From the NCBI GenBank assembly GCA_033439265.1, contig JAVTVX010000031.1, forward strand, positions 17,094,001-17,158,000: a DNA stretch of 64,000 nt, read 5' to 3'. A program made the position numbers and the translations under genes. Below are positions 7,101 to 50,863 of this stretch, one piece after another. Within the stretch, counting starts at the first letter, position 1. Each line of letters opens with the position of its first letter. This stretch comes from Dillenia suffruticosa (Eukaryota > Streptophyta > Magnoliopsida > Dilleniales > Dilleniaceae). A model generated the notes under the pieces. The model saw nothing but the letters and a program-made list of their open reading frames with translations. It searched no databases and was not told the DNA's origin.

Positions 7101-8574
7101 TCATTTTTCTTCAAATGGGCACAAAAGTGTTGATAAGGTTGTATGATTCTTATACGTTGTTGGAAGTTTAGTATAGATCCGGAAGATAACAACTATTTTA
7201 CATTGTTTGGTTTATAATTTAGTTAGCAATATTGTTCTTGCAATATGCTAGCTTCATTAGTTTTAGAAATTTACAATTTGTTTAGCGTGTTGCACTTTTG
7301 TGCAAATGTACTTGCTTTTTAATTTTTAGAATTTGAAAGGATTTCAGAGTGGTTTTTCTCATTAGATGATTTAACATTTTTTTTTAATCTACTTTCACTT
7401 ACTCTTCCTCATAAGATATCATAATGGGGACTATAGGTGGAGGGGAAGGATTTATTTTGTGGACAAATGTGATTTAGAAACCACATGAACAAACTCTAGG
7501 ATCTATCCTTCTACTTTCTTTGATTTGGTGGATAATAGATTTTTTGAAAAAAAAAAAAAAGAATGTAGTAAGAAGATTTTTAGAATATAAAAAATATTTT
7601 GGATGTGGATAAAGGTTAGGGGGAAGGATTAGACAAAAAAAAAAGATTATATTCTAAATAATATCATTTCTATAGAGAAAACTAAAGGGCACCACTTTCT
7701 TCAACATCGTATTTGATTTTTTTTTCAAACATATATTTTGAAGTGTGTTATATTAATATTTGTTGAGAATAAAAGTGGTTTTCAAATTATCATGATCATT
7801 ACTAGTAATGTTGTAGATTTGAATGAGGTTAAAAAATGCAAGCCTCCTTATATTTCTCAAGTGAGCAGAGACGTGTTGGGAAGTTTAACAATCCACATAC
7901 TTTCTTGGGAATTTAGCATAGATTAAGAGGATGAACTTTTTGCTCTTTGTTGTGGAGAGTTGAAATTTATCATGTTTTAATTGTGCATTAACATAGATAG
8001 TAGGAGAAATTTAATTATTATTTTCAATTCTAGGTGGTTGTTTTGCCTTCAAAATATATTTCCCTTTTTGTTTTAGAATTTGACACGACTTTGAAAGTGT
8101 TTTCCTCTTAGAAGATTGAATGAAATTTTTTTTGGTGATTTTTATTTTGAATTTCTTATTTGATATATTTTTTTTTACTCCTCATTCATATGATTACATA
8201 AGAAGGATGGAATTGTAGAAGGTGGATAAGAAAGAACTGCAGAAGGTGGTCAGTACCTGTTTGAACATGATCTCTAGGTCGGGTGATTTCACAGTTTCCC
8301 CACAATTTTTAGAATTTAGATAGTTGCCTTTCTATGAAAACATATTTACATCATTTTTGTTTTACAAAATGGAGGCTTTGAAATGGATTTTTCTCAACGG
8401 AGGATCAAATCTAACTTTGTTGGGATTCTTTTTTTTTTTTGAATTCACTCTCTTTTTCCCCCCTTTTATGATCTTCGTTCTTATGATTTCATTATAGAAT
8501 ACAATGGTAGAAGTTGGACGGAAAAGATTTGGTTTGTCAGAAAATGAGATTTACAAATCAGGTAAACTATTTCA

Positions 8575-9300
8575 TTATAGAATACTTATTTTCAATATAA
8601 TTATTAAATAAGTTAAAATTATTATTAAAATTCAAACTCATTTTTTATAAAAAAATTATTTGGTGCAGCAACAGCTAAATTATATTTGCTCACACTATAC
8701 TCTAATTATTTATTTTTAATAAAATTATTTTTTTATTAGCAACGGCCAAATACCAAGACTTTTAATAATTTGAGTTGAATTCAAAGAAATAATATGTAAT
8801 ATTATATTTAGAAGTCCTCAGAATTGTAGAAGTTGACACTAATGAATTCATTCAAAAGAATAGTATCTATGAAATAGAGGCCTTTTTTTTTTTTAGTAAA
8901 AGACAAAAGAATAGTTCGTTATGTAATAGAGACATTTTTTTTTAGTAAAAGATAAAAGAATAGTTCGTTATGTATTTATCGCAGGGCTGCGTGAAATAGA
9001 GGCCTTTAATAGTGTATTATCCCCCGGGGGAGATAAAGCTTTTGCTCCCCATATCGAAGAGTTTAACATTCAATATTCAAAATTAAGGCACATTTAGTTA
9101 AATAAATCGAAATCAAGAATCTGATTAAAAACTATATGATGTGTTTAGACTAATGAAATGAGAATGGAGTTTTCATTCTAATGATATTTCAGAAATTGTG
9201 AAAACATGGATTTTTGTCGATACCAACATGGATTTTTGAAATTTATTCGCAAAAAATTTAATTTCAAATCCAATTTTGATTGGTTCCGAAAACGGTTTTT
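8575..9300. repeat. Non-satellite interruption with a ~50-bp triple repeat
   Basis: Satellite landmarks stop near 8,575 and resume near 9,300. The interruption is very AT-rich. Positions 8,853-9,007 contain three head-to-tail copies of a unit of about 50 bp that starts 'aaaagaatagt' and runs through 'tagag' and a T-run to 'agtaaaaga'; the third copy ends differently, with 'gcagggctgcgtgaaatagagg'. A perfect GC palindrome, cccccggggg, lies near 9,021, unusual in this AT-rich context. No coding signal is seen. It may be a degraded insertion in the array, but I could not define ends or a target duplication. Confidence 0.5.
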
Positions 9301-12199
9301 CATATCAGCCTATCAACTTTAATCTTGTTGTGATCTTTTTCTAAATTCTTCATCATTTTTCTTTTTGGCCCTTGTTCGTACAATTTCATAATGGGTACAA
9401 AATTGTAGGAGGTTGGAGGAAAAGATTTGGCTTGTTTGGGATTTACAAATCAGGTAAACAATCTCTAAGATTAGAACCCCAGAGAAGAGACAAAAGTTTG
9501 GTTCACATACTTTACATTTTAGATTGTTGCCTTTTATGCGCACTTTCACCCTTTTTTTAGAATTTAAGACAGCATATTATTTCATGGTGGGGATAGAACA
9601 CTTACGGGTGGAGGGGAAAGATTTGGTTTGGGAAGAAATACCATTACAAATCAGGTAATCAGTACTTAGTGGAAGAGCTGTTACCATTTGGGAAGTGATA
9701 GTTAAACTTTATTTTGTTTTAATTGTATTAACGTCATTGGAGATCATTTTAGATTATAGATCGATGCTTTTGTGTCCAAATATAATTGCAATGTTTTCAG
9801 AATTTTACAGGGTTTTGAAAGGAGTCTTTTCTGATCATATAATCAAATGTAACTTTGTTGGGATTCTTTTTTCTTTTGGAATTCTCTCTTCATTTTTTTT
9901 TAACTCTCTGTTCACATGATTTTGGGCAAAGTTTTGGTCTGTCAAGAATGGGGTAAGCAGATTGTATTATGTAAGCAAATTGTATTAGGAAAAAAAATTG
10001 AAATGTTATTTTTTGAAAGATATTATTTTTGGGAGGAAGCCGCCCCAGTTTCAGTAACATCATGTTTATTTATATTTCTATTATCTATTTTAAAATATAT
10101 TATATTGATATTTGCTAACAACAAAACTATATTTAAAATGATCGTCAAAGGGGTTCTTTTTTTATCACATAATCGAATGTAAATTTTTTCACCAAAAATA
10201 ATAATAATAATCGAATGTAACTTTGTTGGAATCTTTTTTTTTTCGGAATTCTCTTCAATTTTTTTTTAAATCTTCATTCGTATGATTTTGGGAAAAGTTT
10301 TGGTCTGTCAAGAATGGGGCAAGCAAATTGTAATATGTATTCATGCTTCTCTCTTTGATTTGTGAAAGAGTAGAAGTTTTGGGAAAGATTAGAAAAATAT
10401 TTTCAAATGTTATTTTTTGAAAATATTATTTTTGGAGGGGGAAGTTGCCCCAGTTTCGGTAACATCATGTTTATTTATATTTCCTTTATCCATTTTAAAA
10501 TTTATTAGGTTGATATTTGCGAACAACAAAAGAGTATTTTTAAAATGATTGTCAAAGTATGGTTGTGGATTTAATTGAGGTTAAATAATATAAGCATCCT
10601 CATCTCAAGTGGGTAGAGAAGTATTGGTTAATACAATCCATAAGTTTTGTAGGTAATTAGCATTGATCTAGAAGATAATTACCTATTTTACAATGATGGG
10701 TTTATAATTTAGTGACTGACATTGATTTTACAATATGCAAACCGTGTAGGTTAAAATTTATTTTGATTTAATATTACTAATGGTAGAACTTTGGGATTCT
10801 ATTTTAGATTATGGAATGTTGCTTTTATGTGCAAATGAGCCCTTTTCTTTTTTCGAATTTGAGAGGGTTTCAGAAGGGGTTTTTACTTTTCGCATATGAT
10901 TTCATAATGGAGAAAAAATTGTAATAGGTGGAGGAGAAAGAGTCAATTTATGAAAAAATAAGAGTTATAAATCAGGTAATCAATATATAAGATCCATCCT
11001 TTCTCCTTGCTTTCTTTGATTTGGTGAAAAATGGAATGTTCGGCAAATATTGCATAAAGAAGATTTTTAGATCGCAAAAAAGAATTTGGATGAGCCCCTT
11101 TTCCTCTTTAAATTTGGGGGAGATTTGATTTTGAGGGGGAAATTTAGATAAAAAAATTTCATTCCAAAAATAATTTTGGAGGAGAAAACTAATATGTGCC
11201 ACTCTCACACAAAGCATTGGAATTTTTTTTAGATATATTTTAAAGTCATCTTGATATTTGGTAATAATAAAATTGTGTTTTTATAATGAATGTGATCATT
11301 ATAGGTATACTTGTCGATTTACCACTGAGATTAAAAAATATAAGTTTTTTCATTTTTGTTCAAACAAGCTAAGAAGCCAATAGAAGTTTATACACTCCAA
11401 ATAATTTGTTGGGGGGCTTAGCTTAGATTTAAAAGATAATTTTCTATTTTATAATGTTCAGTTTACATTACTAATTGGTAAATTTGTTACCATTTAGCAA
11501 GTATTTTGCTAACAGTTGAATAAATTTTATTTTAATTGTATTAAAATAAAGGTTTTAGGAGAAAGAGTCGATTTATGAAAAAATAAGAGTTATAAATCAG
11601 GTAATCAATATATAAGATCCATCCTTTCTCCTTGCTTTCTTTGATTTGGTGAAAAATAGAATGTTCGGCAAATATTGCATAAAGAAGATTTTTAGATCGC
11701 AAAAAAGAATTTGGATGAGCCCCTTTTCCTCTTTAAATTTGGGGGAGATTTGATTTTGAGAGGGAAATTTAGATAAAAAAAATTTCATTCCAAAAATAAT
11801 TTTGGAGGAGAAAACTAATATGTGCCTCTCTCACACAAAGCATTGGAATTTTTTTTAGATAAATTTTAAAGTCATCTTGATATTTGGTAATAATAAAATT
11901 GTGTTTTTATAATGAATGTGATCATTATAGGTATACTTGTCGATTTACCACTGAGATTAAAAAATATAAGTTTCTTCATTTTTGTTCAAACAAGTTAAGA
12001 AGCCCGTAGAAGTTTATACACTCCAAATAATTTGTTGGGGGCTTAGCTTAGATTTAAAAGATAATTTTCTATTTAATAATGTTCAGTTTATATTACTAAT
12101 TGGTAAATTTGTTACCATTTGGCAAGTATTTTGCTAACAGTTGAATAAATTTTATTTCAATTGTATTAAAATAAAGGGTTTAGGAGAAAGAGTCGATTT

Positions 12200-15100
12200 A
12201 TGAAAAAATAAGAGTTATAAATCAGGTAATCAATATATAAGATCCATCCTTTCTCCTTGCTTTCTTTGATTTGGTGAAAAATAGAATGTTCGGAAAAATA
12301 TTGCATAAAGAAGATTTTTAGATCGCAAAAAAGAATTTGGATGAGCCCCTTTTCCTCTTAAAATTTGGGGGAGATTTGATTTTGAGGGGGAAATTTAGAT
12401 AAAAAAAATTTCATTCCAAAAATAATTTTGGAGGAGAAAACTAATATGTGCCTCTCTCACACAAAGCATTGGAATTTTTTTTAGATATATTTTAAAGTCA
12501 TCTTGATATTTGGTAATAATAAAATTGTGTTTTTATAATGAATGTGATCATTATAGGTATACTTGTCGATTTACCACTGAGACTAAAAAATATAAGTTTT
12601 TTAATTTTTGTTCAAACAAGCTAAGAATCCCATAGAAGTTTATACACTCCAAATAATTTGTTTGGGGGCTTAGCTTAGATTTAAAGATAATTTTCTATTT
12701 TATAATGTTCAGTTTAAATTACTAATTGGTAAATTTGTTACCATTTGGCAAGTATTTTGCTAACAGTTGAATAAATTTTATTTTAATTGTATTAAAATAA
12801 AGGGTTTAGGGAAAGAGTCGATTTATAAAAAAATAAGAGTTATAAATCAGGTAATCAATATATAAGATCCATCCTTTCTCCTTGCTTTCTTTGATTTGGT
12901 GAAAAATTGAATGTTCGACAAATATTGCATAAAGAAGATTTTTAGATCGCAAAAAAGAATTTGGATGAGCCCCTTTTCCTCTTTAAATTTGGGGGAGATT
13001 TGATTTTGAGGGGGAAATTTAGATAAAAAAAATTTCATTCCAAAAATAATTTTGGAGGAGAAAACTAATATGTGCCACTCTCACACAAAGCATTGGAATT
13101 TTTTTTAGATATATTTTAAAGTCATCTTGATATTTGGTAATAATAAAATTGTGTTTTTATAATGAATGTGATCATTATAAGTATACTTGTCGATTTACCA
13201 CTGAGATTAAAAAATATAAGTTTTTTCATTTTTGTTCAAACAAGCTGAGAAGCCCATAGAAGTTTATACACTCCAAATAATTTGTTGGGTGCTTAGCTTA
13301 GTTTTAAAAGATAATTTTCTATTTTATAATGTTCAGTTTATATTACTAATTGGTAAATTTGTTACCATTTGGCAAGTATTTTGCTAACAGTTGAATAAAT
13401 TTTATTTTAATTGTATTAAAACAAAGGGTTTAGGAGAAAGAGTCGATTTATGAAAAAAAAAGAGTTATAAATCAGGTAATCAATATATAAGATCCATCCT
13501 TTCTCCTTGCTTTCTTTGATTTGGTGAAAAGTAGAATGTTCGACAAATATTGCATAAAGAACATTTTTAGATCGCAAAAAAGAATTTGGATGAGCCCCTT
13601 TTCCTCTTTAAATTTGGGGGAGATTTGATTTTGAGGGGGAAATTTAGATAAAAAAAATTTCATTGCAAAAATAATTTTGGAGGAGAAAACTAATATGTGC
13701 CTCTCTCACACAAAGCATTGGAATTTTTTTTAGATAAATTTTAAAGTCGTCTTGATATTTGGTAATAATAAAATTGTGTTTTTATAATGAATGTGATCAT
13801 TATAGGTATACTTGTCGATTTACCACTGAGATTAAAAAAATATAAGTTTCTTCATTTTTGTTCAAACAAGTTAAGAAGCCCGTAGAAGTTTATACACTCC
13901 AAATAATTTGTTGGGGGCTTAGCTTAGATTTAAAATATAATTTTCTATTTTATAATGTTCAGTTTATATTACTAATCGGTAAATTTGTTACCATTTGGCA
14001 AGTATTTTGCTAACAGTTGAATAAATTTTATTTTAATTGTATTAAAATAAAGGGTTTAGGTGAAAGAGTCGATTTATGAAAAAAAAAGAGTTATAAATCA
14101 GGTAATCAATATATAAGATCCATCCTTTCTCCTTGCTTTCTTTGATTTGGTGAAAAATAGAATGTTCGACAAATATTGCATAAAGAACATTTTTAGATCG
14201 CAAAAAAGAATTTGGATGAGCCCCTTTTCCTCTTAAAATTTGGGGGAGATTTGATTTTGAGGGGGAAATTTAGATAAAAAAAATTTCATTCCAAAAATAA
14301 TTTTGGAGGAGAAAACTAATATGTGCCTCTCTCACACAAAGCATTGGAATTTTTTTTAGATATATTTTAAAGTCATCTTGATATTTGGTAATAATAAAAT
14401 TGTGTTTTTATAATGAATGTGATCATTATAGGTATACTTGTCGATTTACCACTGAGACTAAAAAATATAAGTTTTTTAATTTTTGTTCAAACAAGCTAAG
14501 AATCCCATAGAAGTTTATACACTCCAAATAATTTGTTCGGGGGCTTAGCTTAGATTTAAAGATAATTTTCTATTTTATAATGTTCAGTTTAAATTACTAA
14601 TTGGTAAATTTGTTACCATTTGGCAAGTATTTTGCTAACAGTTGAATAAATTTTATTTTAATTGTATTAAAATAAAGGGTTTAGGGAAAGAGTTGATTTA
14701 TGAAAAAATAAGAGTTATAAATCAGGTAATCAATATATAAGATCCATCCTTTCTCCTTGCTTTCTTTGATTTGGTGAAAAATAGAATGTTCGACAAATAT
14801 TGCATAAAGAAGATTTTTAGATCGCAAAAAAGAATTTGGATGAGCCCCTTTTCCTCTTTAAATTTGGGGGAGATTTGATTTTGAGGGGGAAATTTAGATA
14901 AAAAAAATTTCATTCCAAAAATAATTTTGGAGGAGAAAACTAATATGTGCCTCTCTCACACAAAGCATTGGAATTTTTTTTAGATAAATTTTAAAGTCAT
15001 CTTGATATTTGGTAATAATAAAATTGTGTTTTTATAATGAATGTGATCATTATAAGTATACTTGTAGATTTACCACTGAGATTAAAAAATATAAGTTTTT

Positions 15101-18100
15101 TCATTTTTGTTCAAACAAGCTGAGAAGCCCATAGAAGTTTATACACTCCAAATAATTTGTTGGGTGCTTAGCTTAGTTTTAAAAGATAATTTTCTATTTT
15201 ATAATGTTCAGTTTATATTACTAATTGGTAAATTTGTTACCATTTGGCAAGTATTTTGCTAACAGTTGAATAAATTTTATTTTAATTGTATTAAAATAAA
15301 GGGTTTAGGAGAAAGAGTCGATTTATGAAAAAAAAAGAGTTATAAATCAGGTAATCAATATATAAGATCCATCCTTTCTCCTTGCTTTCTTTGATTTGGT
15401 GAAAAGTAGAATGTTCGACAAATATTGCATAAAGAACATTTTTAGATCGCAAAAAAGATTTGGATGAGCCCCTTTTCCTCTTTAAATTTGGGGGAGATTT
15501 GATTTTGAGGGGGAAATTTAGATAAAAAAAATTTCATTCCAAAAATAATTTTGGAGGAGAAAACTAATATGTGCCTCTCTCACACAAAGCATTGGAATTT
15601 TTTTTAGATATATTTTAAAGTCATCTTGATATTTGGTAATAATAAAATTGTGTTTTTATAATGAATGTGATCATTATAGGTATACTTGTCGATTTACCAC
15701 TGAGATTAAAAAATATAAGTTTTTTCATTTTTGTTCAAACAAGCTAAGAAGCCCATAGAAGTTTATACACACCAAATAATTTGTTGGGGGCTTAGCTTAG
15801 ATTTAAAAGATAATTTTCTATTTTATAATGTTCAGTTTATATTACTAATTGGTAAGTTTGTTACCATTGGGCAAGTATTTTGCTAACAGTTGAATAAATT
15901 TTATTTTAATTGTATTAAAATAAAGGGTTTAGGAGAAAGAGTCGATTTATGAAAAAATAAGAGTTATGAATCAGGTAATCAATATATAAGATCCATCCTT
16001 TCTCCTAGCTTTCTTCGCTTCGGTGAAAAATAGAATGTTCGGCAAATATTGCATAAAGAAGATTTTTAGATCGCAAAAAAGAATTTGGATGAGCCCCTTT
16101 TCCTCTTTAAATTTGGGGGAGATTTGATTTTGAGGGGGAAATTTAGATAAAAAAAATTTCATTCCAAAAATAATTTTGGAGGAGAAAACTAATATGTGCC
16201 TCTCTCACACAAAGCATTGGAATTTTTTTTAGATAAATTTTAAAGTCGTCTTGATATTTGGTAATAATAAAATTGTGTTTTTATAATGAATGTGATCATT
16301 ATAGGTATACTTGTCGATTTACCACTGAGATTAAAAAATATAAGTTTTTTCATTTTTGTTCAAACAAGCTAAGAAGCCCATAGAAGTTTATACACACCAA
16401 ATAATTTGTTGGGGGCTTAGCTTAGATTTAAAAGATAATTTTCTATTTTATAATGTTCAGTTTATATTACTAATTGGTAAGTTTGTTACCATTGGGCAAG
16501 TATTTTGCTAACAGTTGAATAAATTTTATTTTAATTGTATTAAAATAAAGGGTTTAGGAGAAAGAGTCGATTTATGAAAAAATAAGAGTTATGAATCAGG
16601 TAATCAATATATAAGATCCATCCTTTCTCCTAGCTTTCTTCGCTTCGGTGAAAAATAGAATGTTCGGCAAATATTGCATAAAGAAGATTTTTAGATCGCA
16701 AAAAAGAATTTGGATGAGCCCCTTTTCCTCTTTAAATTTGGGGGAGATTTGATTTTGAGGGGGAAATTTAGATAAAAAAAATTTCATTCCAAAAATAATT
16801 TTGGAGGAGAAAACTAATATGTGCCTCTCTCACACAAAGCATTGGAATTTTTTTTAGATAAATTTTAAAGTCGTCTTGATATTTGGTAATAATAAAATTG
16901 TGTTTTTATAATGAATGTGATCATTATAGGTATACTTGTCGATTTACCACTGAGATTAAAAAATATAAGTTTTTTCATTTTTGTTCAAACAAGCTAAGAA
17001 GCCCATAGAAGTTTATACACACCAAATAATTTGTTGGGGGCTTAGCTTAGATTTAAAAGATAATTTTCTATTTTATAATGTTCAGTTTATATTACTAATT
17101 GGTAAGTTTGTTACCATTGGGCAAGTATTTTGCTAACAGTTGAATAAATTTTATTTTAATTGTATTAAAATAAAGGGTTTAGGAGAAAGAGTCGATTTAT
17201 GAAAAAATAAGAGTTATGAATCAGGTAATCAATATATAAGATCCATCCTTTCTCCTAGCTTTCTTCGCTTCGGTGAAAAATAGAATGTTCGGCAAATATT
17301 GCATAAAGAAGATTTTTAGATCGCAAAAAAGAATTTGGATGAGCCCCTTTTCCTCTTTAAATTTGGGGGAGATTTGATTTTGAGGGGGAAATTTAGATAA
17401 AAAAAATTTCATTCCAAAAATAATTTTGGAGGAGAAAACTAATATGTGCCTCTCTCACACAAAGCATTGGAATTTTTTTTAGATAAATTTTAAAGTCGTC
17501 TTGATATTTGGTAATAATAAAATTGTGTTTTTATAATGAATGTGATCATTATAGGTATACTTGTCGATTTACCACTGAGATTAAAAAAATATAAGTTTCT
17601 TCATTTTTGTTCAAACAAGCTAAGAAGCCCATAGAAGTTTATACACACCAAATAATTTGTTGGGGGCTTAGCTTAGATTTAAAAGATAATTTTCTATTTT
17701 ATAATGTTCAGTTTATATTACTAATTGGTAAGTTTGTTACCATTGGGCAAGTATTTTGCTAACAGTTGAATAAATTTTATTTTAATTGTATTAAAATAAA
17801 GGGTTTAGGAGAAAGAGTCGATTTATGAAAAAATAAGAGTTATGAATCAGGTAATCAATATATAAGATCCATCCTTTCTCCTAGCTTTCTTCGCTTCGGT
17901 GAAAAATAGAATGTTCGGCAAATATTGCATAAAGAAGATTTTTAGATCGCAAAAAAGAATTTGGATGAGCCCCTTTTCCTCTTTAAATTTGGGGGAGATT
18001 TGATTTTGAGGGGGAAATTTAGATAAAAAAAATTTCATTCCAAAAATAATTTTGGAGGAGAAAACTAATATGTGCCTCTCTCACACAAAGCATTGGAATT

Positions 18101-20200
18101 TTTTTTAGATAAATTTTAAAGTCGTCTTGATATTTGGTAATAATAAAATTGTGTTTTTATAATGAATGTGATCATTATAGGTATACTTGTCGATTTACCA
18201 CTGAGATTAAAAAATATAAGTTTCTTCATTTTTGTTCAAACAAGTTAAGAAGCCCGTAGAAGTTTATACACTCCAAATAATTTGTTGGGGGCTTAGCTTA
18301 GATTTAAAATATAATTTTCTATTTTATAATGTTCAGTTTATATTACTAATCGGTAAATTTGTTACCATTTGGCAAGTATTTTGCTAACAGTTGAATAAAT
18401 TTTATTTTAATTGTATTAAAATAAAGGGTTTAGGAGAAAGAGTCGATTTATGAAAAAAAAAAGAGTTATAAATCAGGTAATCAATATATAAGATCCATCC
18501 TTTCTCCTTGCTTTCTTTGATTTGGTGAAAAATAGAATGTTTGGCAAATATTGCATAAAGAAGATTTTTAGATCGCAAAAAAGAATTTGGATGAGCCCCT
18601 TTTCCTCTTTAAATTTGGGGGAGATTTGATTTTGAGGGGGAAATTTAGATGAAAAAAATTTCATTGCAAAAATAATTTTGGAGGAGAAAACTAATATGTG
18701 CCTCTCTCACACAAAGCATTGGAATTTTTTTTAGATAAATTTTAAAGTCGTCTTGATATTTGGTAATAATAAAATTGTGTTTTTATAATGAATGTGATCA
18801 TTATAGGTATACTTGTCGATTTACCACTGAGATTAAAAAAATATAAGTTTCTTCATTTTTGTTCAAACAAGTTAAGAAGCCCGTAGAAGTTTATACACTC
18901 CAAATAATTTGTTGGGGGCTTAGCTTAGATTTAAAATATAATTTTCTATTTTATAATGTTCAGTTTATATTACTAATCGGTAAATTTGTTACCATTTGGC
19001 AAGTATTTTGCTAACAGTTGAATAAATTTTATTTTAATTGTATTAAAATAAAGGGTTTAGGTGAAAGAGTCGATTTATGAAAAAAAAAGAGTTATAAATC
19101 AGGTAATCAATATATAAGATCCATCCTTTCTCCTTGCTTTCTTTGATTTGGTGAAAAATAGAATGTTCGACAAATATTGCATAAAGAACATTTTTAGATC
19201 GCAAAAAAGAATTTGGATGAGCCCCTTTTCCTCTTAAAATTTGGGGGAGATTTGATTTTGAGGGGGAAATTTAGATAAAAAAAATTTCATTCCAAAAATA
19301 ATTTTGGGGGAGAAAACTAATATGTGCCTCTCTCACACAAAGCATTGGAATTTTTTTTAGATATATTTTAAAGTCATCTTGATATTTGGTAATAATAAAA
19401 TTGTGTTTTTATAATGAATGTGATCATTATAGGTATACTTGTCGATTTACCACTGAGACTAAAAAATATAAGTTTTTTAATTTTTGTTCAAACAAGCTAA
19501 GAATCCCATAGAAGTTTATACACTCCAAATAATTTGTTCGGGGGCTTAGCTTAGATTTAAAGATAATTTTCTATTTTATAATGTTCAGTTTAAATTACTA
19601 ATTGGTAAATTTGTTACCATTTGGCAAGTATTTTGCTAACAGTTGAATAAATTTTATTTTAATTGTATTAAAATAAAGGGTTTAGGGAAAGAATTGATTT
19701 ATGAAAAAATAAGAGTTATAAATCAGGTAATCAATATATAAGATCCATCCTTTCTCCTTGCTTTCTTTGATTTGGTGAAAAATAGAATGTTCGACAAATA
19801 TTGCATAAAGAAGATTTTTAGATCGCAAAAAAGAATTTGGATGAGCCCCTTTTCCTCTTTAAATTTGGGGGAGATTTGATTTTGAGGGGGAAATTTAGAT
19901 AAAAAAAATTTCATTCCAAAAATAATTTTGGAGGAGAAAACTAATATGTGCCTCTCTCACACAAAGCATTGGAATTTTTTTTAGATATATTTTAAAGTCA
20001 TCTTGATATTTGGTAATAATAAAATTGTGTTTTTATAATGAATGTGATCATTATAAGTATACTTGTCGATTTACCACTGAGATTAAAAAATATAAGTTTT
20101 TTCATTTTTGTTCAAACAAGCTGAGAAGCCCATAGAAGTTTATACACTCCAAATAATTTGTTGGGTGCTTAGCTTAGTTTTAAAATATAATTTTCTATTT
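12200..20200. repeat. Higher-order copies of a 1-1.5 kb block at offsets of 1.88 and 5.0 kb
   Basis: The variants 'cctcttaaaatttgg', 'gagactaaaaaa', 'cattataagtatac' and 'gggtgcttagcttagtttt' occur together in order at about 12,355-13,300, 14,231-15,180 and 19,231-20,180. The last two also share 'gttcgggggc', 'gtttaggtgaaag' and, upstream, 'cattgcaaaaat' (13,663 and 18,664). The offsets are 1,876 bp (3 monomers) and 5,000 bp (8 monomers). Multi-monomer blocks have therefore been copied as units. Confidence 0.8.
15740..18150. repeat. Run of four near-identical monomers (variant block)
   Basis: Four successive monomers share private variants not found in most others: 'tagctttcttcgcttcggtg' (near 16,007, 16,633, 17,258 and 17,883) instead of 'ttgctttctttgatttggtg', 'acacaccaaataat' (near 15,765, 16,390, 17,015, 17,640) and 'accattgggcaag'. 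The same variants reappear together once more near 20,230-20,400, joined to another monomer type. This is the signature of recent local amplification and of recombination between monomers. Confidence 0.85.
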
Positions 20201-20969
20201 TATAATGTTCAGTTTATATTACTAATTGGTAAGTTTGTTACCATTGGGCAAGTATTTTGCTAACAGTTGAATAAATTTTATTTTAATTGTATTAAAATAA
20301 AGGGTTTAGGAGAAAGAGTCGATTTATGAAAAAATAAGAGTTATGAATCAGGTAATCAATATATAAGATCCATCCTTTCTCCTAGCTTTCTTCGCTTCGG
20401 TGAAAAATAGAATGTTCGACAAATATTGCATAAAGAACATTTTTAGATCGCAAAAAAGAATTTGGATGAGCCCCTTTTCCTCTTTAAATTTGGGGGAGAT
20501 TTGATTTTGAGGGGGAAATTTAGATAAAAAAAATTTCATTCCAAAAATAATTTTGGAGGAGAAAACTAATATGTGCCTCTCTCACACAAAGCATTGGAAT
20601 TTTTTTTAGATGAATTTTAAAGTCGTCTTGATATTTGGTAATAATAAAATTGTGTTTTTATAATGAATGTGATCATTATAGGTATACTTGTCGATTTACC
20701 ACTGAGATTAAAAAATATAAGTTTCTTCATTTTTGTTCAAACAAGTTAAGAAGCCCGTAGAAGTTTATACACTCCAAATAATTTGTTGGGGGCTTGGCTT
20801 AGATTTAAAAGATAATTTTCTATTTTATAATGTTCAGTTTATATTACTAATTGGTAAATTTGTTACCATTTGGCAAGTATTTTGCTAACAGTTGAATAAA
20901 TTTTATTTTAATTGTATTAAAATAAAGGGTTTAGGAGAAAGAGTCGATTTATGAAAAAATAAGAGTTAT

Positions 20970-23900
20970 GAATCAGGTAATCAATATATAAGATCCATCC
21001 TTTCTCCTTGCTTTCTTTGATTTGGTGAAAAATAGAATGTTCGGCAAATATTGCATAAAGAAGATTTTTAGATCGCAAAAAAGAATTTGGATGAGCCCCT
21101 TTTCCTCTTTAAATTTGGGGGAGATTTGATTTTGAGGGGGAAATTTAGATAAAAAAAATTTCATTCCAAAAATAATTTTGGAGGAGAAAACTAATATGTG
21201 CCTCTCTCACACAAAGCATTGGAATTTTTTTTAGATAAATTTTAAAGTCGTCTTGATATTTGGTAATAATAAAATTGTGTTTTTATAATGAATGTGATCA
21301 TTATAGGTATACTTGTCGATTTACCACTGAGATTAAAAAATATAAGTTTCTTCATTTTTGTTCAAACAAGTTAAGAAGCCCGTAGAAGTTTATACACTCC
21401 AAATAATTTGTTGGGGGCTTAGCTTAGATTTAAAATATAATTTTCTATTTTATAATGTTCAGTTTATATTACTAATTGGTAAATTTGTTACCATTTGGCA
21501 AGTATTTTGCTAACAGTTGAATAAATTTTATTTTGATTGTATTAAAATAAAGGGTTTAGGAGAAAGAGTCGATTTATGAAAAAATAAGAGTTATGAATCA
21601 GGTAATCAATATATAAGATCCATCCTTTCTCCTTGCTTTCTTTGATTTGGTGAAAAATAGAATGTTCGGCAAATATTGCATAAAGAAGATTTTTAGATCG
21701 CAAAAAAGAATTTGGATGAGCCCCTTTTCCTCTTTAAATTTGGGGGAGATTTGATTTTGAGGGGGAAATTTAGATAAAAAAAATTTCATTCCATAAATAA
21801 TTTTGGAGGAGAAAACTAATATGTGCCTCTCTCACACAAAGCATTGGAATTTTTTTTAGATAAATTTTAAAGTCGTCTTGATATTTGGTAATAATAAAAT
21901 TGTGTTTTTATAATGAATGTGATCATTATAGGTATACTTGTCGATTTACCACTGAGATTAAAAAATATAAGTTTCTTCATTTTTGTTCAAACAAGTTAAG
22001 AAGCCCGTAGAAGTTTATACACTCCAAATAATTTGTTGGGGGCTTAGCTTAGATTTAAAATATAATTTTCTATTTTATAATGTTCAGTTTATATTACTAA
22101 TTGGTAAATTTGTTACCATTTGGCAAGTATTTTGCTAACAGTTGAATAAATTTTATTTTAATTGTATTAAAATAAAGGGTTTAGGAGAAAGAGTCGATTT
22201 ATGAAAAAAAAAGAGTTATGAATCAGGTAATCAATATATAAGATCCATCCTTTCTCCTTGCTTTCTTTGATTTGGTGAAAAGTAGAATGTTCGACAAATA
22301 TTGCATAAAGAACATTTTTAGATCGCAAAAAAGAATTTGGATGAGCCCCTTTTCCTCTTTAAATTTGGGGGAGATTTGATTTTGAGGGGGAAATTTAGAT
22401 AAAAAAAATTTCATTCCAAAAATAATTTTGGAGGAGAAAACTAATATGTGCCTCTCTCACACAAAGCATTGGAATTTTTTTTAGATAAATTTTAAAGTCG
22501 TCTTGATATTTGGTAATAATAAAATTGTGTTTTTATAATGAATGTGATCATTATAGGTATACTTGTCGATTTACCACTGAGATTAAAAAATATAAGTTTC
22601 TTCATTTTTGTTCAAACAAGTTAAGAAGCCCGTAGAAGTTTATACACTCCAAATAATTTGTTGGGGGCTTAGCTTAGATTTAAAATATAATTTTCTATTT
22701 TATAATGTTCAGTTTATATTACTAATCGGTAAATTTGTTACCATTTGGCAAGTATTTTGCTAACAGTTGAATAAATTTTATTTTAATTGTATTAAAATAA
22801 AGGGTTTAGGTGAAAGAGTCGATTTATGAAAAAAAAAGAGTTATAAATCAGGTAATCAATATATAAGATCCATCCTTTCTCCTTGCTTTCTTTGATTTGG
22901 TGAAAAATAGAATGTTCGACAAATATTGCATAAAGAACATTTTTAGATCGCAAAAAAGAATTTGGATGAGCCCCTTTTCCTCTTTAAATTTGGGGGAGAT
23001 TTGATTTTGAGGGGGAAATTTAGATAAAAAAAATTTCATTCCAAAAATAATTTTGGAGGAGAAAACTAATATGTGCCTCTCTCACACAAAGCATTGGAAT
23101 TTTTTTTAGATAAATTTTAAAGTCGTCTTGATATTTGGTAATAATAAAATTGTGTTTTTATAATGAATGTGATCATTATAGGTATACTTGTCGATTTACC
23201 ACTGAGATTAAAAAATATAAGTTTCTTCATTTTTGTTCAAACAAGTTAAGAAGCCCGTAGAAGTTTATACACTCCAAATAATTTGTTGGGGGCTTAGCTT
23301 AGATTTAAAATATAATTTTCTATTTTATAATGTTCAGTTTATATTACTAATCGGTAAATTTGTTACCATTTGGCAAGTATTTTGCTAACAGTTGAATAAA
23401 TTTTATTTTAATTGTATTAAAATAAAGGGTTTAGGTGAAAGAGTCGATTTATGAAAAAAAAAGAGTTATAAATCAGGTAATCAATATATAAGATCCATCC
23501 TTTCTCCTTGCTTTCTTTGATTTGGTGAAAAATAGAATGTTCGACAAATATTGCATAAAGAACATTTTTAGATCGCAAAAAAGAATTTGGATGAGCCCCT
23601 TTTCCTCTTTAAATTTGGGGGAGATTTGATTTTGAGGGGGAAATTTAGATAAAAAAAATTTCATTCCAAAAATAATTTTGGAGGAGAAAACTAATATGTG
23701 CCTCTCTCACACAAAGCATTGGAATTTTTTTTAGATAAATTTTAAAGTCGTCTTGATATTTGGTAATAATAAAATTGTGTTTTTATAATGAATGTGATCA
23801 TTATAGGTATACATTTCGATTTACCACTGAGATTAAAAAATATAAGTTTCTTCATTTTTGTTCAAACAAGTTAAGAAGCCCGTAGAAGTTTATACACTCC

Positions 23901-26900
23901 AAATAATTTGTTGGGGGCTTAACTTAGATTTTAAAGATAATTTTCTATTTTATAATGTTCAGTTTATATTACTAATTGGTAAATTTGTTACCATTTGGCA
24001 AGTATTTTGCTAACAGTTGAATAAATTTTATTTTAATTGTATTAAAATAAAGGGTTTAGGAGAAAGAGTCGATTTATGAAAAAATAAGCTTTGGTGAATC
24101 AGGTAATCAATATATAAGATCCATCCTTTCTCGTTGCTTTCTTTCATTTGGTGAAAAATAGAATGTTCGACAAATAATGCATAAAGAAGATTTTTAGATC
24201 GCAAAAAAGAATTTGGATGAGCCCCTTTTCCTCTTTAAATTTGGGGGAGATTTGATTTTGAGGGGGAAATTTAGATAAAAAAAATTTCATTCCAAAAATA
24301 ATTTTGGAGGAGAAAACTAATATGTGCCTCTCTCACACAAAGCATTGGAATTTTTTTTAGATATATTTTAAAGTCGTCTTGATATTTGGTAATAATAAAA
24401 TTGTGTTTTTATAATGAATGTGATCATTATAGGTATACTTGTCGATTTACCACTGAGATTAAAAAATATAAGTTTCTTCATTTTTGTTCAAACAAGTTAA
24501 GAAGCCCGTAGAAGTTTATACACTCCAAATATTTTGTTGGGGGCTTAGCTTAGATTTAAAAGATAATTTTCTATTTTATAATGTTCAGTTTATATTACTA
24601 ATTGGTAAATTTGTTACCATTTGGCAAGTATTTTGCTAACAGTTGAATAAATTTTATTTTAATTGTATTAAAATAAAGGGTTTAGGAGAAAGAGTCGATT
24701 TATGAAAAAATAAGAGTTATGAATCAGGTAATCAATATATAAGATCCATCCTTTCTCCTTGCTTTCTTTGATTTGGTGAAAAATAGAATGTTCGGCAAAT
24801 ATTGCATAAAGAAGATTTTTAGATCGCAAAAAAGAATTTGGATGAGCCCCTTTTCCTCTTTAAATTTGGGGGAGATTTGATTTTGAGGGGGAAATTTAGA
24901 TAAAAAAAATTTCATTCCAAAAATAATTTTGGAGGAGAAAACTAATATGTGCCTCTCTCACACAAAGCATTGGAATTTTTTTTAGATAAATTTTAAAGTC
25001 GTCTTGATATTTGGTAATAATAAAATTGTGTTTTTATAATGAATGTGATCATTATAGGTATACTTGTCGATTTACCACTGAGATTAAAAAATATAAGTTT
25101 CTTCATTTTTGTTCAAACAAGTTAAGAAGCCCGTAGAAGTTTATACACTCCAAATAATTTGTTGGGGGCTTAGCTTAGATTTAAAATATAATTTTCTATT
25201 TTATAATGTTCAGTTTATATTACTAATTGGTAAATTTGTTACCATTTGGCAAGTATTTTGCTAACAGTTGAATAAATTTTATTTTAATTGTATTAAAATA
25301 AAGGGTTTAGGAGAAAGAGTCGATTTATGAAAAAATAAGAGTTATGAATCAGGTAATCAATATTAAAGATCCATCCTTTCTCCTTGCTTTCTTTGATTTG
25401 GTGAAAAATAGAATGTTCGGCAAATATTGCATAAAGAAGATTTTTAGATCGCAAAAAAGAATTTGGATGAGCCCCTTTTCCTCTTTAAATTTGGGGGAGA
25501 TTTGATTTTGAGGGGGAAATTTAGATAAAAAAAATTTCATTCCATAAATAATTTTGGAGGAGAAAACTAATATGTGCCTCTCTCACACAAAGCATTGGAA
25601 TTTTTTTTAGATAAATTTTAAAGTCGTCTTGATATTTGGTAATAATAAAATTGTGTTTTTATAATGAATGTGATCATTATAGGTATACTTGTCGATTTAC
25701 CACTGAGATTAAAAAATATAAGTTTCTTCATTTTTGTTCAAACAAGTTAAGAAGCCCGTAGAAGTTTATACACTCCAAATAATTTGTTGGGGGCTTAGCT
25801 TAGATTTAAAATATAATTTTCTATTTTATAATGTTCAGTTTATATTACTAATTGGTAAATTTGTTACCATTTGGCAAGTATTTTGCTAACAGTTGAATAA
25901 ATTTTATTTTAATTGTATTAAAATAAAGGGTTTAGGAGAAAGAGTCGATTTATGAAAAAAAAAGAGTTATGAATCAGGTAATCAATATATAAGATCCATC
26001 CTTTCTCCTTGCTTTCTTTGATTTGGTGAAAAGTAGAATGTTCGACAAATATTGCATAAAGAACATTTTTAGATCGCAAAAAAGAATTTGGATGAGCCCC
26101 TTTTCCTCTTTAAATTTGGGGGAGATTTGATTTTGAGGGGGAAATTTAGATAAAAAAAATTTCATTCCAAAAATAATTTTGGAGGAGAAAACTAATATGT
26201 GCCTCTCTCACACAAAGCATTGGAATTTTTTTTAGATAAATTTTAAAGTCGTCTTGATATTTGGTAATAATAAAATTGTGTTTTTATAATGAATGTGATC
26301 ATTATAGGTATACTTGTCGATTTACCACTGAGATTAAAAAATATAAGTTTCTTCATTTTTGTTCAAACAAGTTAAGAAGCCCGTAGAAGTTTATACACTC
26401 CAAATAATTTGTTGGGGGCTTAGCTTAGATTTAAAATATAATTTTCTATTTTATAATGTTCTGTTTATATTACTAATCGGTAAATTTGTTACCATTTGGC
26501 AAGTATTTTGCTAACAGTTGAATAAATTTTATTTTAATTGTATTAAAATAAAGGGTTTAGGAGAAAGAGTCGATTTATGAAAAAAAAAAGAGTTATAAAT
26601 CAGGTAATCAATATATAAGATCCATCCTTTCTCCTTGCTTTCTTTGATTTGGTGAAAAATAGAATGTTCGGCAAATATTGCATAAAGAAGATTTTTAGAT
26701 CGCAAAAAAGAATTTGGATGAGCCCCTTTTCCTCTTTAAATTTGGGGGAGATTTGATTTTGAGGGGGAAATTTAGATAAAAAAAATTTCATTCCAAAAAT
26801 AATTTTGGAGGAGAAAACTAATATGTGCCTCTCTCACACAAAGCATTGGAATTTTTTTTAGATAAATTTTAAAGTCGTCTTGATATTTGGTAATAATAAA

Positions 26901-28960
26901 ATTGTGTTTTTATAATGAATGTGATCATTATAGGTATACTTGTCGATTTACCACTGAGATTAAAAAATATAAGTTTCTTCATTTTTGTTCAAACAAGTTA
27001 AGAAGCCCGTAGAAGTTTATACACTCCAAATAATTTGTTGGGGGCTTAGCTTAGATTTAAAATATAATTTTCTATTTTATAATGTTCAGTTTATATTACT
27101 AATCGGTAAATTTGTTACCATTTGGCAAGTATTTTGCTAACAGTTGAATAAATTTTATTTTAATTGTATTAAAATAAAGGGTTTAGGTGAAAGAGTCGAT
27201 TTATGAAAAAAAAAGAGTTATAAATCAGGTAATCAATATATAAGATCCATCCTTTCTCCTTGCTTTCTTTGATTTGGTGAAAAATAGAATGTTCGACAAA
27301 TATTGCATAAAGAACATTTTTAGATCGCAAAAAAGAATTTGGATGAGCCCCTTTTCCTCTTTAAATTTGGGGGAGATTTGATTTTGAGGGGGAAATTTAG
27401 ATAAAAAAAATTTCATTCCAAAAATAATTTTGGAGGAGAAAACTAATATGTGCCTCTCTCACACAAAGCATTGGAATTTTTTTTAGATAAATTTTAAAGT
27501 CGTCTTGATATTTGGTAATAATAAAATTGTGTTTTTATAATGAATGTGATCATTATAGGTATACTTGTCGATTTACCACTGAGATTAAAAAATATAAGTT
27601 TCTTCATTTTTGTTCAAACAAGTTAAGAAGCCCGTAGAAGTTTATACACTCCAAATAATTTGTTGGGGGCTTAGCTTAGATTTAAAATATAATTTTCTAT
27701 TTTATAATGTTCAGTTTATATTACTAATCGGTAAATTTGTTACCATTTGGCAAGTATTTTGCTAACAGTTGAATAAATTTTATTTTAATTGTATTAAAAT
27801 AAAGGGTTTAGGTGAAAGAGTCGATTTATGAAAAAAAAAGAGTTATAAATCAGGTAATCAATATATAAGATCCATCCTTTCTCCTTGCTTTCTTTGATTT
27901 GGTGAAAAATAGAATGTTCGACAAATATTGCATAAAGAACATTTTTAGATCGCAAAAAAGAATTTGGATGAGCCCCTTTTCCTCTTTAAATTTGGGGGAG
28001 ATTTGATTTTGAGGGGGAAATTTAGATAAAAAAAATTTCATTCCAAAAATAATTTTGGAGGAGAAAACTAATATGTGCCTCTCTCACACAAAGCATTGGA
28101 ATTTTTTTTAGATAAATTTTAAAGTCGTCTTGATATTTGGTAATAATAAAATTGTGTTTTTATAATGAATGTGATCATTATAGGTATACATTTCGATTTA
28201 CCACTGAGATTAAAAAATATAAGTTTCTTCATTTTTGTTCAAACAAGTTAAGAAGCCCGTAGAAGTTTATACACTCCAAATAATTTGTTGGGGGCTTAAC
28301 TTAGATTTTAAAGATAATTTTCTATTTTATAATGTTCAGTTTATATTACTAATTGGTAAATTTGTTACCATTTGGCAAGTATTTTGCTAACAGTTGAATA
28401 AATTTTATTTTAATTGTATTAAAATAAAGGGTTTAGGAGAAAGAGTCGATTTATGAAAAAAAAAGAGTTATGAATCAGGTAATCAATATATAAGATCCAT
28501 CCTTTCTCCTTGCTTTCTTTGATTTGGTGAAAAGTAGAATGTTCGACAAATATTGCATAAAGAACATTTTTAGATCGCAAAAAAGAATTTGGATGAGCCC
28601 CTTTTCCTCTTTAAATTTGGGGGAGATTTGATTTTGAGGGGGAAATTTAGATAAAAAAAATTTCATTCCAAAAATAATTTTGGAGGAGAAAACTAATATG
28701 TGCCTCTCTCACACAAAGCATTGGAATTTTTTTTAGATAAATTTTAAAGTCGTCTTGATATTTGGTAATAATAAAATTGTGTTTTTATAATGAATGTGAT
28801 CATTATAGGTATACTTGTCGATTTACCACTGAGATTAAAAAATATAAGTTTCTTCATTTTTGTTCAAACAAGTTAAGAAGCCCGTAGAAGTTTATACACT
28901 CCAAATATTTTGTTGGGGGCTTAGCTTAGATTTAAAAGATAATTTTCTATTTTATAATGT
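20970..28960. repeat. Six/seven-monomer duplication within the core
   Basis: Rare variants recur at multi-monomer distances: 'ccataaataa' at 21,791 and 25,542 (3,751 bp, 6 monomers); 'acatttcgat' at 23,811 and 28,188 (4,377 bp, 7 monomers); 'attttgttgg' at 24,531 and 28,907 (4,376 bp, 7 monomers). The step from 6 to 7 means one additional monomer (about 26,600-27,224) lies in the right copy or was lost from the left one. The pattern fits unequal exchange between duplicated blocks. Confidence 0.8.
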
Positions 28961-29670
28961 TCAGTTTATATTACTAATTGGTAAATTTGTTACCATTTGG
29001 CAAGTATTTTGCTAACAGTTGAATAAATTTTATTTTAATTGTATTAAAATAAAGGGTTTAGGAGAAAGAGTCGATTTATGAAAAAATAAGAGTTATGAAT
29101 CAGGTAATCAATATATAAGATCCATCCTTTCTCCTTGCTTTCTTTGATTTGGTGAAAAATAGAATGTTCGGCAAATATTGCATAAAGAAGATTTTTAGAT
29201 CGCAAAAAAGAATTTGGATGAGCCCCTTTTCCTCTTTAAATTTGGGGGAGATTTGATTTTGCGGGGGAAATTTAGATAAAAAAATTTCATTCCAAAAATA
29301 ATTTTGGAGGAGAAAACTAATATGTGCCTCTCTCACACAAAGCATTGGAATTTTTTTTAGATAAATTTTAAAGTCATCTTGATATTCGGCAATAAAAAAA
29401 TTGTGTTTTTATAATGAATGTGATCATTATAGGTATACTTGTCGATTTACCACTGAGATTAAAAAATATAAGTTTCTTCATTTTTGTTCAAACAAGTTAA
29501 GAAGCCCGTAGAAGTTTATACACTCCAAATAATTTGTTGGGGGCTTAGCTTAGATTTAAAAGATAATTTTCTATTTTATAATGTTCAGTTTATATTACTA
29601 ATTGGTAAATTTGTTACCATTTGGCAAGTATTTTGCTAACAGTTGAATAAATTTTATTTTAATTGTATTA

Positions 29671-32215
29671 ACTTCATTAATGCTAGAAATTTCATTATTA
29701 TTTTAGATTTTAAATTGTTGCTTTTTTGCTCAAATATAATTGTTCATTTTAGATTGTTGATTTCATATTATTACCGAATTGTAGAAATAGGAAGGGAAGG
29801 GTACAAATTTGTTCAGGGGTGATTTTGCAATTTCCATTCATTTTTTAGATTTTTGATTGTTCCTTTTCCATGTAAACATATTTGCATCATTTTTGTTTTA
29901 GACTATGATGGAGGTTTTGAAATGGATTTTTCTCATTGGAGGATCAAATCTAACTTTGTTGAGATTTTTTTTGAATTCATTCTTTTTTTTTTTCTGCTCT
30001 TTGTTCTTATGATTTCATAATAGGATACAATTGTAGAAGTTGGAGGGAAAAGATTTGGATTGTCAAGAAATGAGATTTACAAATTAGGTAAACTATTTCT
30101 AAGACCTTTTCTCTCTTTCTTTTATTTAGTGGAAAGTAGATTTTGTGGAATGAAAAAGGTTTTAGATAGTTAAAAAATCTTTCTGATGTGTCCTCTTTTT
30201 TATTTTGTGGATAATTAATTTTTGGCAGAAAGATCAGGAAAAAAATTCAAAATGCATTTTCTGTGAAATATTATTTTTGGAATGATACTAATGCGCAGCT
30301 GTCTCTCTTTCACTCTCTTTGTGACTTTGCATTTGATTTTTTTCCTTTTTGTTTTACAATATAAAGGGTGGAAGATTGATATCTACCAACAAAACAATTG
30401 TTTAAAAATAGTTATTGCCATCATTAGATATATAGTTGATTTGACTGAGATTAAAAAGACATAAGTTCTGTCAATTTTCTTGTTGAAGGTGGTAGAGAAG
30501 TGTTGGGAAGTTAACACAGTCTTTATACCCTTTTGGAGTTTAGCATAGATCTTGAAGATAATTATTAATTTACAAGATTAGGGTGGATTAGGTGTTAGCA
30601 ATGTGATATCCAAGAATATTTCTTTGGCAACCAATGGCCATGAAGACTCCCTTTGGAAACTCCTATGTTGCATTTGGAGAGGGAAATGCTGAATTTTCCA
30701 TGACTCCTCTATTTTATTAGGCAAAATTGTTTTTATACTTTCTTGTAAGCTTACACCACAAGGGTTGTAAAGATTATAGGTTATGAGATTTTAAGAGAGA
30801 CAGGAAAATAGCAGTGCATTAGTTTTTACGTTGTAATCATTAGTAGTGCATTAGTTTTTATTTTGTAATCATACTTTTTTACTTCTAAGAATTTGTATCC
30901 TTGTGTTTTGTACATTCTTTCATTCTTCTAATATACAATTTTTTTTCTATCAAAAAAAGTTGGGAAATATTGTTACCATCTGTGAATCATGTTGCTCATA
31001 GTTGACCTTTATTTTATTTGGATAATATTAACTTTGAGTGAAAGAAAATATTATTTTTAATTTTAGATTGTTGCTTTTATATCCAAATATATTTTAATAT
31101 TTTGAAGGGAGCTTTACTTATTCAACGATCTAATCTAATTTTATAGGGAATTTATTTTTGGATTCTCTCGTATTTTCTTTTTTGTTTTAACTCTTTGTTC
31201 ATATGATTTCATAATAGGGACAGACTTGTAGACCGATGGGGATAGAATTGATTTATCAGGAAATGGGATTTAAAGCAATCTTTAAGATTTATATTTTCTA
31301 AAAAAATATAATTTTGGGGAGAGTGCCTCTCTCACTAATATTTTTTTCATTTTTTGATTATATATATATTTAAAGGGTGTTAAATTAATAATTGTTAACA
31401 ACAAAATAATTTTTTTAGGATAATAGTTATCATTAGAGGTAAAATTGTCATTTTTATATTAAATATACAAACATCCTGATTTTCCTTCAAGTAGGCTGAG
31501 AAGTGTGAGTCTAACATAAATTTAAAAGATAATTATTAATTCACAGCGGGGACAAAATTTAACAATTTTACAATGGGGACAAAATTGTAGGAGGTTGGAG
31601 GTAAAGATTTGGTTTGTTTGGGATTTACAAATCTGGTAAACAATCTCTAAGATTTATACTTTCCTCCATCATTTGTTGGGGAAGATTGCACAAAATAGAT
31701 TTTAAATCGTAAAAAATCTTTTTGGTTGTGTCCCTCTCTCTATTTTTCCTTTTGATTCAATGGATAATTGATATTTAGGGAAACGATTGGGCAAAGATAT
31801 TTTCAATTTCATCTTTTGAAAAATATAAGTCTCTCTCATTGTGTTTTAATTTTTTCAGTAGTTTAATATTTTAAAGGGTGTTGGAGTGATTTTTGCCAAC
31901 AATAAACAGTGTTTTTAAAATGATTGTCATCATTAGAGGTATTGTTGTAGATTTGATTGAAATAAAAAAAATATAAGCTTCCACATTTTTCTTAATATGT
32001 GTAGAGAAGTGTGGGGAAGCTTATACAATTGTTATATTTTATTGGGAGTTTAACAAAAATTCAGAAGGTAATTACAAATTTATAATGTTGGATTTATCAT
32101 TTAGCACTTGCTATGTGTTATCATCTGCCAACTGTCTGGATTGAATTTTATTTTATTTAACAGTATTTTCATTACGATATTAGAATTCAGATTGTTGCTT
32201 TTTTGTGCAACCATC
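29671..32215. repeat. Diverged right flank of the satellite domain
   Basis: From 29,671 the sequence continues into the segment missing from core monomers ('acttcattaatgctagaaat', then a stretch like 'tagattttaaattgttgctt'). Degenerate full-length units follow, with the 'gatttacaaat..ggtaaac' landmark near 30,075, 31,265 and 31,625, and 'gttgggagttta' relatives. The 30,570-30,960 part closely resembles 2,620-2,900 in the left flank, including a shared 'acaagattagggtggatt'. Divergence is similar to that of the left flank. Confidence 0.8.
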
Positions 32216-32700
32216 TAATACTTTCCCTTCTGTAGGCATCCCTATCAGGCAATTTGAACCTATGGCTCAACATCCCCAAAATCCACCTTAAATCCATATT
32301 AAAGAAAAAAGAAGCAAAACAAATAAAATGAAATTCTAGAAAAAAAGAAAAACAGATTCTGCTTTAGGCATTTTGGGAAGCTGATACATGGCATTGACAT
32401 AATACATATGGAGATCACATAAAATTTGTCCCAAAAAATACAACTATTCCATTACATGATTACATTGTACTTTTTCCTACATAATCACAAATTTAAACTT
32501 AATATCCAATCCAGAACATGTATAAACTTTAAAACTTTAAACACAGAAATCAGAAAGTACATGAAAAGAATGAACTAATTGATTCACTTCACCAATCCAG
32601 AACATGCATCAGCTTTAAAACCTTAGAAAAACAGAAAGTACATGAAAAGAATGAACTAATTGATTCATTTCACCAATGAACTAATTGATTCATTTCACTA
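32216..32700. other. Non-satellite transition sequence
   Basis: Satellite similarity ends near 32,215. The stretch is A-rich on the plus strand and carries a short local repeat: 'gaatgaactaattgattca' occurs near 32,567, 32,650 and in part at 32,685, with 'agaaagtacatgaaaagaat' before the first two. If the minus-strand transcription unit described next is real, this is its downstream part. I see no open frame of note. Confidence 0.4.
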
Positions 32701-32867
32701 ATCGAGAACATTTACAAACTTTAAAACCTTAATATCCAATTAAAATTCAAAGAGACTTGAGAAACCAAACACAAATATACGACTATGTCTAGAAATTTCA
32801 ATGCAGGTATTAGAAACCCGAGAGAAGAGACATACAATCATTCAAAATTTTAAACAAAAAGCCTTAC

Positions 32868-32942
32868 CTTGCATTTGAGAGACTCAAGAAACCAAATCCA
32901 GACACCAAAACCCTAATCGCCGCCAGAAACAACCGTTGAATT
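32868..32942 (-). other. Duplicate copy of the minus-strand leader exon
   Basis: Read on the minus strand, this 75-bp segment is bounded by an acceptor-like 'ttttgcag' and a donor-like 'ggtaagg'. It matches the leader exon at 33,195-33,292, sharing 'aattcaacggttgt' and 'gattagggttttggtgtctg'. Flanking sequence on both sides is duplicated too: 'agaaca' through 'taatatccaattaaaat' at 32,705 matches 33,019, and 'tctagaaatttca' follows in both. The offset rises from about 314 to 341 bp through indels. No long open frame runs through it, so a 5' untranslated exon is the best guess. Confidence 0.4.
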
Positions 32943-33194
32943 CTGCAAAATTATTCTCCAATTAAAACTCCAAATGAAACACAAGAACAGAAAATACATG
33001 GAAAGAATAAACCGATCCAGAACATGTATAAGATCTAAAACCTTATTATCCAATTAAAATGTAAGAGACTTGAAAAACCAAACACAATTATACGACGATG
33101 TCTAGAAATTTCAGTACAGGTATTAGAAACCCTAAAGAAAGAGAAAATATTGCGATCACTTCACCGATCATACAAAATCTTAAAGAAATCTTAC

Positions 33195-33495: not shown

Positions 33496-33529
33496 GTCGT
33501 AAGGTTGGTGACAGCTGTACAAGCAAGGG

Positions 33530-33537: not shown

Positions 33538-33539
33538 TA

Positions 33540-50820: not shown

Positions 50821-50863
<43 letters not shown>

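Follow-up and report, generated by a model that had tools for sequence, protein, structure and literature searches.

In parts of three reviews (PMC12321929, PMC8997354, PMC12046899), both models of array growth are described, as are repair events of the microhomology type in centromeric repeats and the nesting of centromeric satellites in layers. How a tandem array was founded can usually no longer be read, since the traces are lost through turnover. Here I analyse an array of 30 near-identical monomers of about 625 bp, referred to as the core, in a stretch of 64,000 nucleotides from Dillenia suffruticosa (the window; positions 17,094,001 to 17,158,000 of contig JAVTVX010000031.1, C31, in the 596-Mb, 37-contig assembly GCA_033439265.1). 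At this locus one genome has preserved the founding breakpoints and the junction along with several unamplified sister sites, and the seeding of tandem arrays can thus be tested by comparing junctions, segments and populations. The core very probably arose by amplification in place, with a presumed end-joining-type tandem duplication of an internal segment followed by homology-driven expansion and exchange.

With the layered expansion of human alpha-satellite, as treated in parts of PMC12321929 and PMC12046899, the locus shares a young homogeneous array nested in older, diverged kin. However, it measures tens of kilobases rather than megabases, lies between protein genes, has no regular higher-order repeat and is accompanied by unamplified sister sites in the same genome. 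Layered nesting is already known from centromeric satellites; unusual are the preserved unamplified sites and the repeated nucleation in sister loci. The Smith unequal-exchange arrays, in the relevant part of PMC8997354, are likewise founded without extensive homology and then subject to out-of-register exchange and homogenisation, but in the present case the founding breakpoints can still be read and a clear older edge is not seen. Microhomology-type repair is proposed for maize and human centromeric repeats in the same part of that review, and joints with short or no homology occur here too (4 bp in a second array on contig C24, an insert of about 12 bp in the core), with the difference that the presumed pathway would here found a new tandem array. 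The non-centromeric arrays of the Salicaceae (PMC12046899, in part) are homogenised plant tandem repeats outside the centromere, as the core may also be; those mix monomers between chromosomes, whereas the junction of the 625-bp type is found at one locus.

The 30 anchors that mark the monomers run from 10,986 to 29,114 of the window, each 624-626 bp from the next. Pairwise identity averages 97.9% (minimum 96.0%, maximum 100%) in a matrix in which the row of the leftmost monomer, M01, still included 26 bp of left context; with this context removed, leaving 618 common columns, two monomers differ on average at 14.0 sites (range 0-24). Thirty head-to-tail copies at this mean identity correspond to satellite DNA in the sense of near-identical tandem monomers. 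Every monomer consists of a 613-bp segment and about 12 bp of junction sequence, the latter with identical bases at 27 of the 29 junctions and a one-base difference at the other two. The original prediction of about 30 near-identical 625-bp monomers with abrupt edges agrees with these results, the edges lying at 10,932 and at 29,671, the latter one base from the 29,670 first given. A gradual change of identity, which would have spoken against that prediction, is not observed inside the core (distance to the edge against mean difference, Spearman -0.06, p = 0.74).

The nature of these edges becomes apparent when the core is collapsed to its left context, M01 and its right context. This collapsed locus aligns through both edges to a single unit at 5,135-5,969 of the window, with 82.4% identity in the left context (paralog at 5.1-5.2 kb), 86.8% in the segment and 82.6% in the right context (paralog at 5.8-6.0 kb), and with 0, 22 and 5 gap columns, 27 in total. 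Over a longer stretch of two units, 1,389 columns without gaps match at 87.5%; the collapsed sequence has gaps of 135, 13 and 11, which fit a local duplication in the paralog, and the paralog has one gap of 9. As the alignment crosses both edges, the core is the amplified internal segment of one unit, of which the rest stands at the two ends, and the edges are abrupt because they are the duplication breakpoints. Sharp edges of this kind are compatible with unequal exchange.

The same unamplified arrangement is found elsewhere in the assembly, and I consider it the strongest evidence for amplification in place. Five close sister blocks (two on contig C10, one each on C24, C15 and C9) and a more distant stretch on C34 were compared; further blocks on C17, C10 (a third copy) and C11 are known from search rows alone. 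The blocks on C24, C15, C9 and C10 are largely collinear with the old array and with its right flank as far as about 33.6 kb or a little more, mostly at 82-90% identity, as read from the best 24 of 145-274 matches per stretch. In both C10 blocks, C24 and C15 the core site holds one unit with both edges intact, of 638, 639, 568 and 584 bp, respectively, against 613 bp here, and these four sites are 87-89% identical to this locus in the left context, 89-92% in the segment and 91-93% in the right context. The C9 block has lost the core site, its alignment skipping from about 11.2 to 30.1 kb. The C10 blocks are tandem copies 26.7 kb apart (C10:12.25-12.30 Mb). At the core site their units are free of substitutions and one base apart in length; the pair is either a single, very recent duplication or a duplicate made in assembly, and hence does not count as two independent witnesses.

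Distances by the Kimura two-parameter model (K2P) are 0.022 within the core (maximum 0.040) and 0.095-0.121 to the four sister sites. With the ancestral state taken as the agreement of at least four of five outgroup rows, two of which are the C10 pair without mutual substitutions, all 30 monomers carry the derived state at 21 sites, and variation is seen at 61 polarised sites. A single founder and a core young relative to its flanks, both proposed beforehand, are supported. A shortened copy as founder is unneeded, as the 613-bp segment already lies inside full units at the in-window paralog and at the four sister sites, and the core did not take over its surroundings: neighbouring old units persist, collinear with the sister blocks apart from some indels. 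Alternatively, the array may be ancestral, with the sister blocks having lost it or shrunk it to a single unit, and such a contraction would give an identical single-unit site. I regard this as quite unlikely, as repeated losses would be required on C10, C24 and C15, the in-window paralog is single as well, and the diversity of the core is far below its divergence from the sisters, even though homogenisation alone could also lower diversity.

A form of the earlier view, in which the spacer between two adjacent old units was deleted and the resulting short unit expanded, is very unlikely in light of the same sites. The junction does sit where a spacer would be expected, its 12 bp could be a spacer remnant, and some old units are already only about 640 bp apart. 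However, sister sites and in-window paralog have one unit, not two, between the same contexts. Moreover, pairs of old units are about 64-87% identical over longer stretches, yet M01 and the rightmost monomer, M30, are equal at 597 of 612 positions, and neither of them has a strongly diverged outer end.

Amplification in place would have begun with a repair process needing little or no homology, which made a head-to-tail duplicate of a 613-bp segment inside one unit of the old array. End joining or template switching could have served, given the insert here and the microhomology on C24, and such a founding duplication would leave at the join about 12 bp not belonging to the segment. Both copies would then supply the homology for out-of-register exchange or break-induced replication, which may have raised their number to about 30, duplicated blocks of several monomers and mixed variants between monomers, while the remainder of the founder unit stayed at the two ends and made the edges look abrupt. 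Unequal exchange and break-induced replication cannot be separated from one assembly.

Multi-monomer duplications, as unequal-exchange arrays require, are indeed present in the core. Whether the threshold is set at 2, 3 or 4 differences, runs of similar monomers are in excess of those obtained by shuffling (p = 0.0005, 0.0025 and 0.012, respectively). Monomers M09-M10 resemble M10-M11 and M20-M21 resemble M27-M28 at all three thresholds, M17-M19 resemble M23-M25 at 2 and 3 differences, and at 4 differences the latter similarity extends to M17-M20 and M23-M26. These similar runs of 2-4 monomers lie at offsets of 1, 6 and 7 without a regular higher-order unit in the core. Differences between monomers rise slightly with their distance in the array (Spearman 0.21, the pairs not being independent). 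Of 666 biallelic site pairs, 177 fail the four-gamete test; this points to exchange inside monomers, though repeated mutation can also contribute to the number.

The same edges and a single common junction would also be expected if the segment had left as a small circle, been multiplied by rolling-circle replication and returned to its source by homologous recombination, and a part of PMC12321929 lists circle-based amplification as one general mechanism. I find this course of events unlikely: the circle would in addition have to reintegrate exactly where it came from, and the block duplications and mixed variants imply many steps after the founding, though these could have followed a circle. 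An assembly artefact is more unlikely still. The core is known from the assembly alone, and the substitution-free tandem pair on C10 shows that very recent duplications or artefacts do occur in this assembly; however, the monomers carry distinct combinations of variants, with only 3 of 435 pairs identical, the block structure is non-random, and the window holds no N.

Whether the outermost monomers are older than the interior was examined in several ways. M01 has the lowest identity in the matrix that kept its left context, and an older edge at M01 seemed apparent from it. This did not hold up after removal of the context, as the mean difference of M01 (18.3) is then matched by that of M03, M14 and M15 (18.2-18.5), with 14.4 for M30. 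Private substitutions are most numerous in M22 (6), followed by M01 with 5 and M30 with 4. When polarised by the paralog, the 14 sites at which M01 differs from the core consensus comprise 6 ancestral, 7 derived and 1 neither, and the 8 sites of M30 comprise 3 ancestral and 5 derived, none of them in its outer half. Polarised on the sister sites, M01 has 7 derived alleles, M30 has 11 and the interior monomers have 10.6 on average. A run of seven A is found among the monomers only in M01 and M30, and has the same length in the sister units of C24, C15 and C10; 27 of the other 28 monomers have eight A, and M13 has a G inside the run. As this is a homopolymer, the shared run is weak evidence.

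Several observations weigh against amplification in place. The classic edge signal is weak: M01 is unremarkable without its left context, M30 does not fall below the interior in derived alleles, and its outer half equals the consensus. The sister sites do not strictly exclude loss, since an array contracting to one unit would recreate them, and further indels beside the core separate the sister blocks from this one. A template for the 12-bp junction was sought in the window, where three single-mismatch sites elsewhere were found, none of them convincing; by eye the junction is partly like the left flank, so that to call it filler is a reading. The copy number comes from one assembly. The weakened claim of edge age, together with the 91.8% match on C10 described below, slightly lowers the odds both of amplification in place and of the more general proposal on recurrent array birth given with that match.

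In the whole assembly, the junction pattern (up to 2 mismatches) gave 29 matches, all 29 within the core, against 2 for a reversed-pattern control; it is blind to a 625-type array with a different junction. In the five other stretches, no match covering at least 80% of the unit reaches 92% (best 85.3%, on C15), against 30 in C31. A 701-bp query from the core start has at least 65 matches on seven contigs, a lower bound because very common words were skipped and the core's own monomers are absent among them. A dispersed satellite family would be expected to have numerous arrays of one monomer in the assembly, and the junction pattern did not find them; judged by sequence, the core thus looks like a one-locus array and not like a dispersed satellite, and the label satellite in the original prediction is too broad. 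A literature search revealed no published 625-bp plant satellite, and I make no claim that the array is unpublished.

Table 1. Features of the core and its surroundings (positions in the window).
Feature	Position	Strand	Remarks
Decayed array, left	1..10931	+	extends about 5.1-5.3 kb further left, beyond the window
Single-unit paralog including both contexts (core site in unamplified form)	5135..5969	+	from alignment
Left context, front of the founder unit, outside the amplified segment	10847..10931	+	
Homogenised core	10932..29671	+	30 head-to-tail 613-bp copies, period 624-626, with 29 junctions of about 12 bp each
M01, left edge monomer	10932..11544	+	left side runs on into old unit
M30, right edge monomer	29059..29671 (start approximate)	+	right side runs on into old unit
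Right context, back of the founder unit	29672..29811	+	
Decayed array, right	29672..32215	+	
Conserved flank common to sister blocks, exon-like, internally duplicated	32216..33607	-	gene reading and strand by eye

The old array around the core is a T-rich tandem array (Table 1), whose leftward extension was measured by profile and also read by eye. In the collapsed stretch its relatives of the core monomer amount to 31 profile pieces with a mean pairwise column identity of 0.68, and in six stretches scanned together, all turned to the orientation of the window, 368 of 368 pieces lie on one strand. Old units follow each other at about 640-770 bp wherever both of two neighbouring starts are intact. 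More similar pairs of old units (about 82-87%) are interleaved with less similar ones (about 64-75%), and the flanks are older than the core on both sides. The flanking relatives had been described as far more diverged and longer than the core monomers; the strong divergence holds, while the left array does not start at base 1 of the window and the period of the core is only modestly shorter than that of the old units. Over window positions 1-32,215, G exceeds C and T exceeds A on the plus strand in every kilobase, an asymmetry that flips at about 32.2 kb. Positions 8,573-9,418 are mostly without array similarity, and the C24 block has about 2.6 kb of extra array units there. Paired fragments at 2,587-2,918 and 30,531-30,931 were duplicated along with old units; they resemble the 3' end of a long interspersed nuclear element (LINE).

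Younger runs, made from different segments, are found in at least three blocks. The C24 block contains a five-copy run of 572 bp with 93.7-95.5% identity to one copy (reverse complement, about 9,346-12,201 of fetched loci L011-L013); its joint is a microhomology read by eye, with AAGA at the left edge, the joint and the right edge. Over the other five stretches this unit is matched at 91.8% at best (on C10), slightly below the 92% line used. In the C9 block a 738-bp unit is present in seven full copies and one partial copy, 89.6-94.4% identical to one of them (about 9.7-15.4 kb in the reverse complement of L028, L017-L019 and L037); it was not found at 80% coverage in the other five stretches, and parts of it match old units elsewhere. 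Identities within runs are thus about 94-95% on C24, about 90-94% on C9 and about 98% in the core. These runs raise the tentative possibility that the T-rich block acts as a satellite nursery, a sequence prone to small repair-type duplications, the segmentally spread copies of which would keep seeding private arrays. If so, one genome would hold several independent array births together with their unamplified sister sites.

No function of the core was found in tests of one coding frame, Pfam, Rfam and conserved boxes. A 102-amino-acid frame on the minus strand of M01 and M30 was rejected as coding, with 9, 11 and 11 mismatches to the 5.2-kb paralog by codon position and no Pfam match. A conserved binding box in the old units is not supported either: the best 30-column stretch reaches 0.79 against a permuted 95% level of 0.81, and near column 256 one stretch, at 0.50, falls below the permuted minimum of 0.54. 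Rfam at gathering score gave nothing for the window or for 10 of the 46 fetched loci, and the window has no transfer RNA. Strand-biased mutation as a sign of transcription is not interpretable, the values being 0.051 for A to G against 0.061 for T to C, and 0.058 for C to G against 0.025 for G to C. The direction of A to G against T to C is opposite to that expected from transcription.

The array lies among genes, as lectin-domain receptor kinase genes flank it on both sides in the same orientation (L009:4118-6412 and window 50,788-53,189). The block as part of a lectin-kinase duplication was rejected, since one frame each of the lectin kinase and of the gene with PDDEXK_6 had no match at 1e-10 in C24, C15, C9, C10 and C34. 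Of the 114 matches that the conserved flank right of the array has in the assembly, some on C29, C26 and C30 are more distant; 3 kb of the distant C29 copy (L046), searched with respect to the gene reading of this flank, gave short frames only and no RNA family. Exons matching Pfam PDDEXK_6 lie at 57,775-58,604 of the window, and broken retrotransposon pieces with matches to reverse transcriptase and RNase H at 34,774-36,352 on the minus strand. Fragments of PPR-repeat genes are found near or inside the C24 and C10 blocks (L013:8782-9273 and L020:5870-6490).

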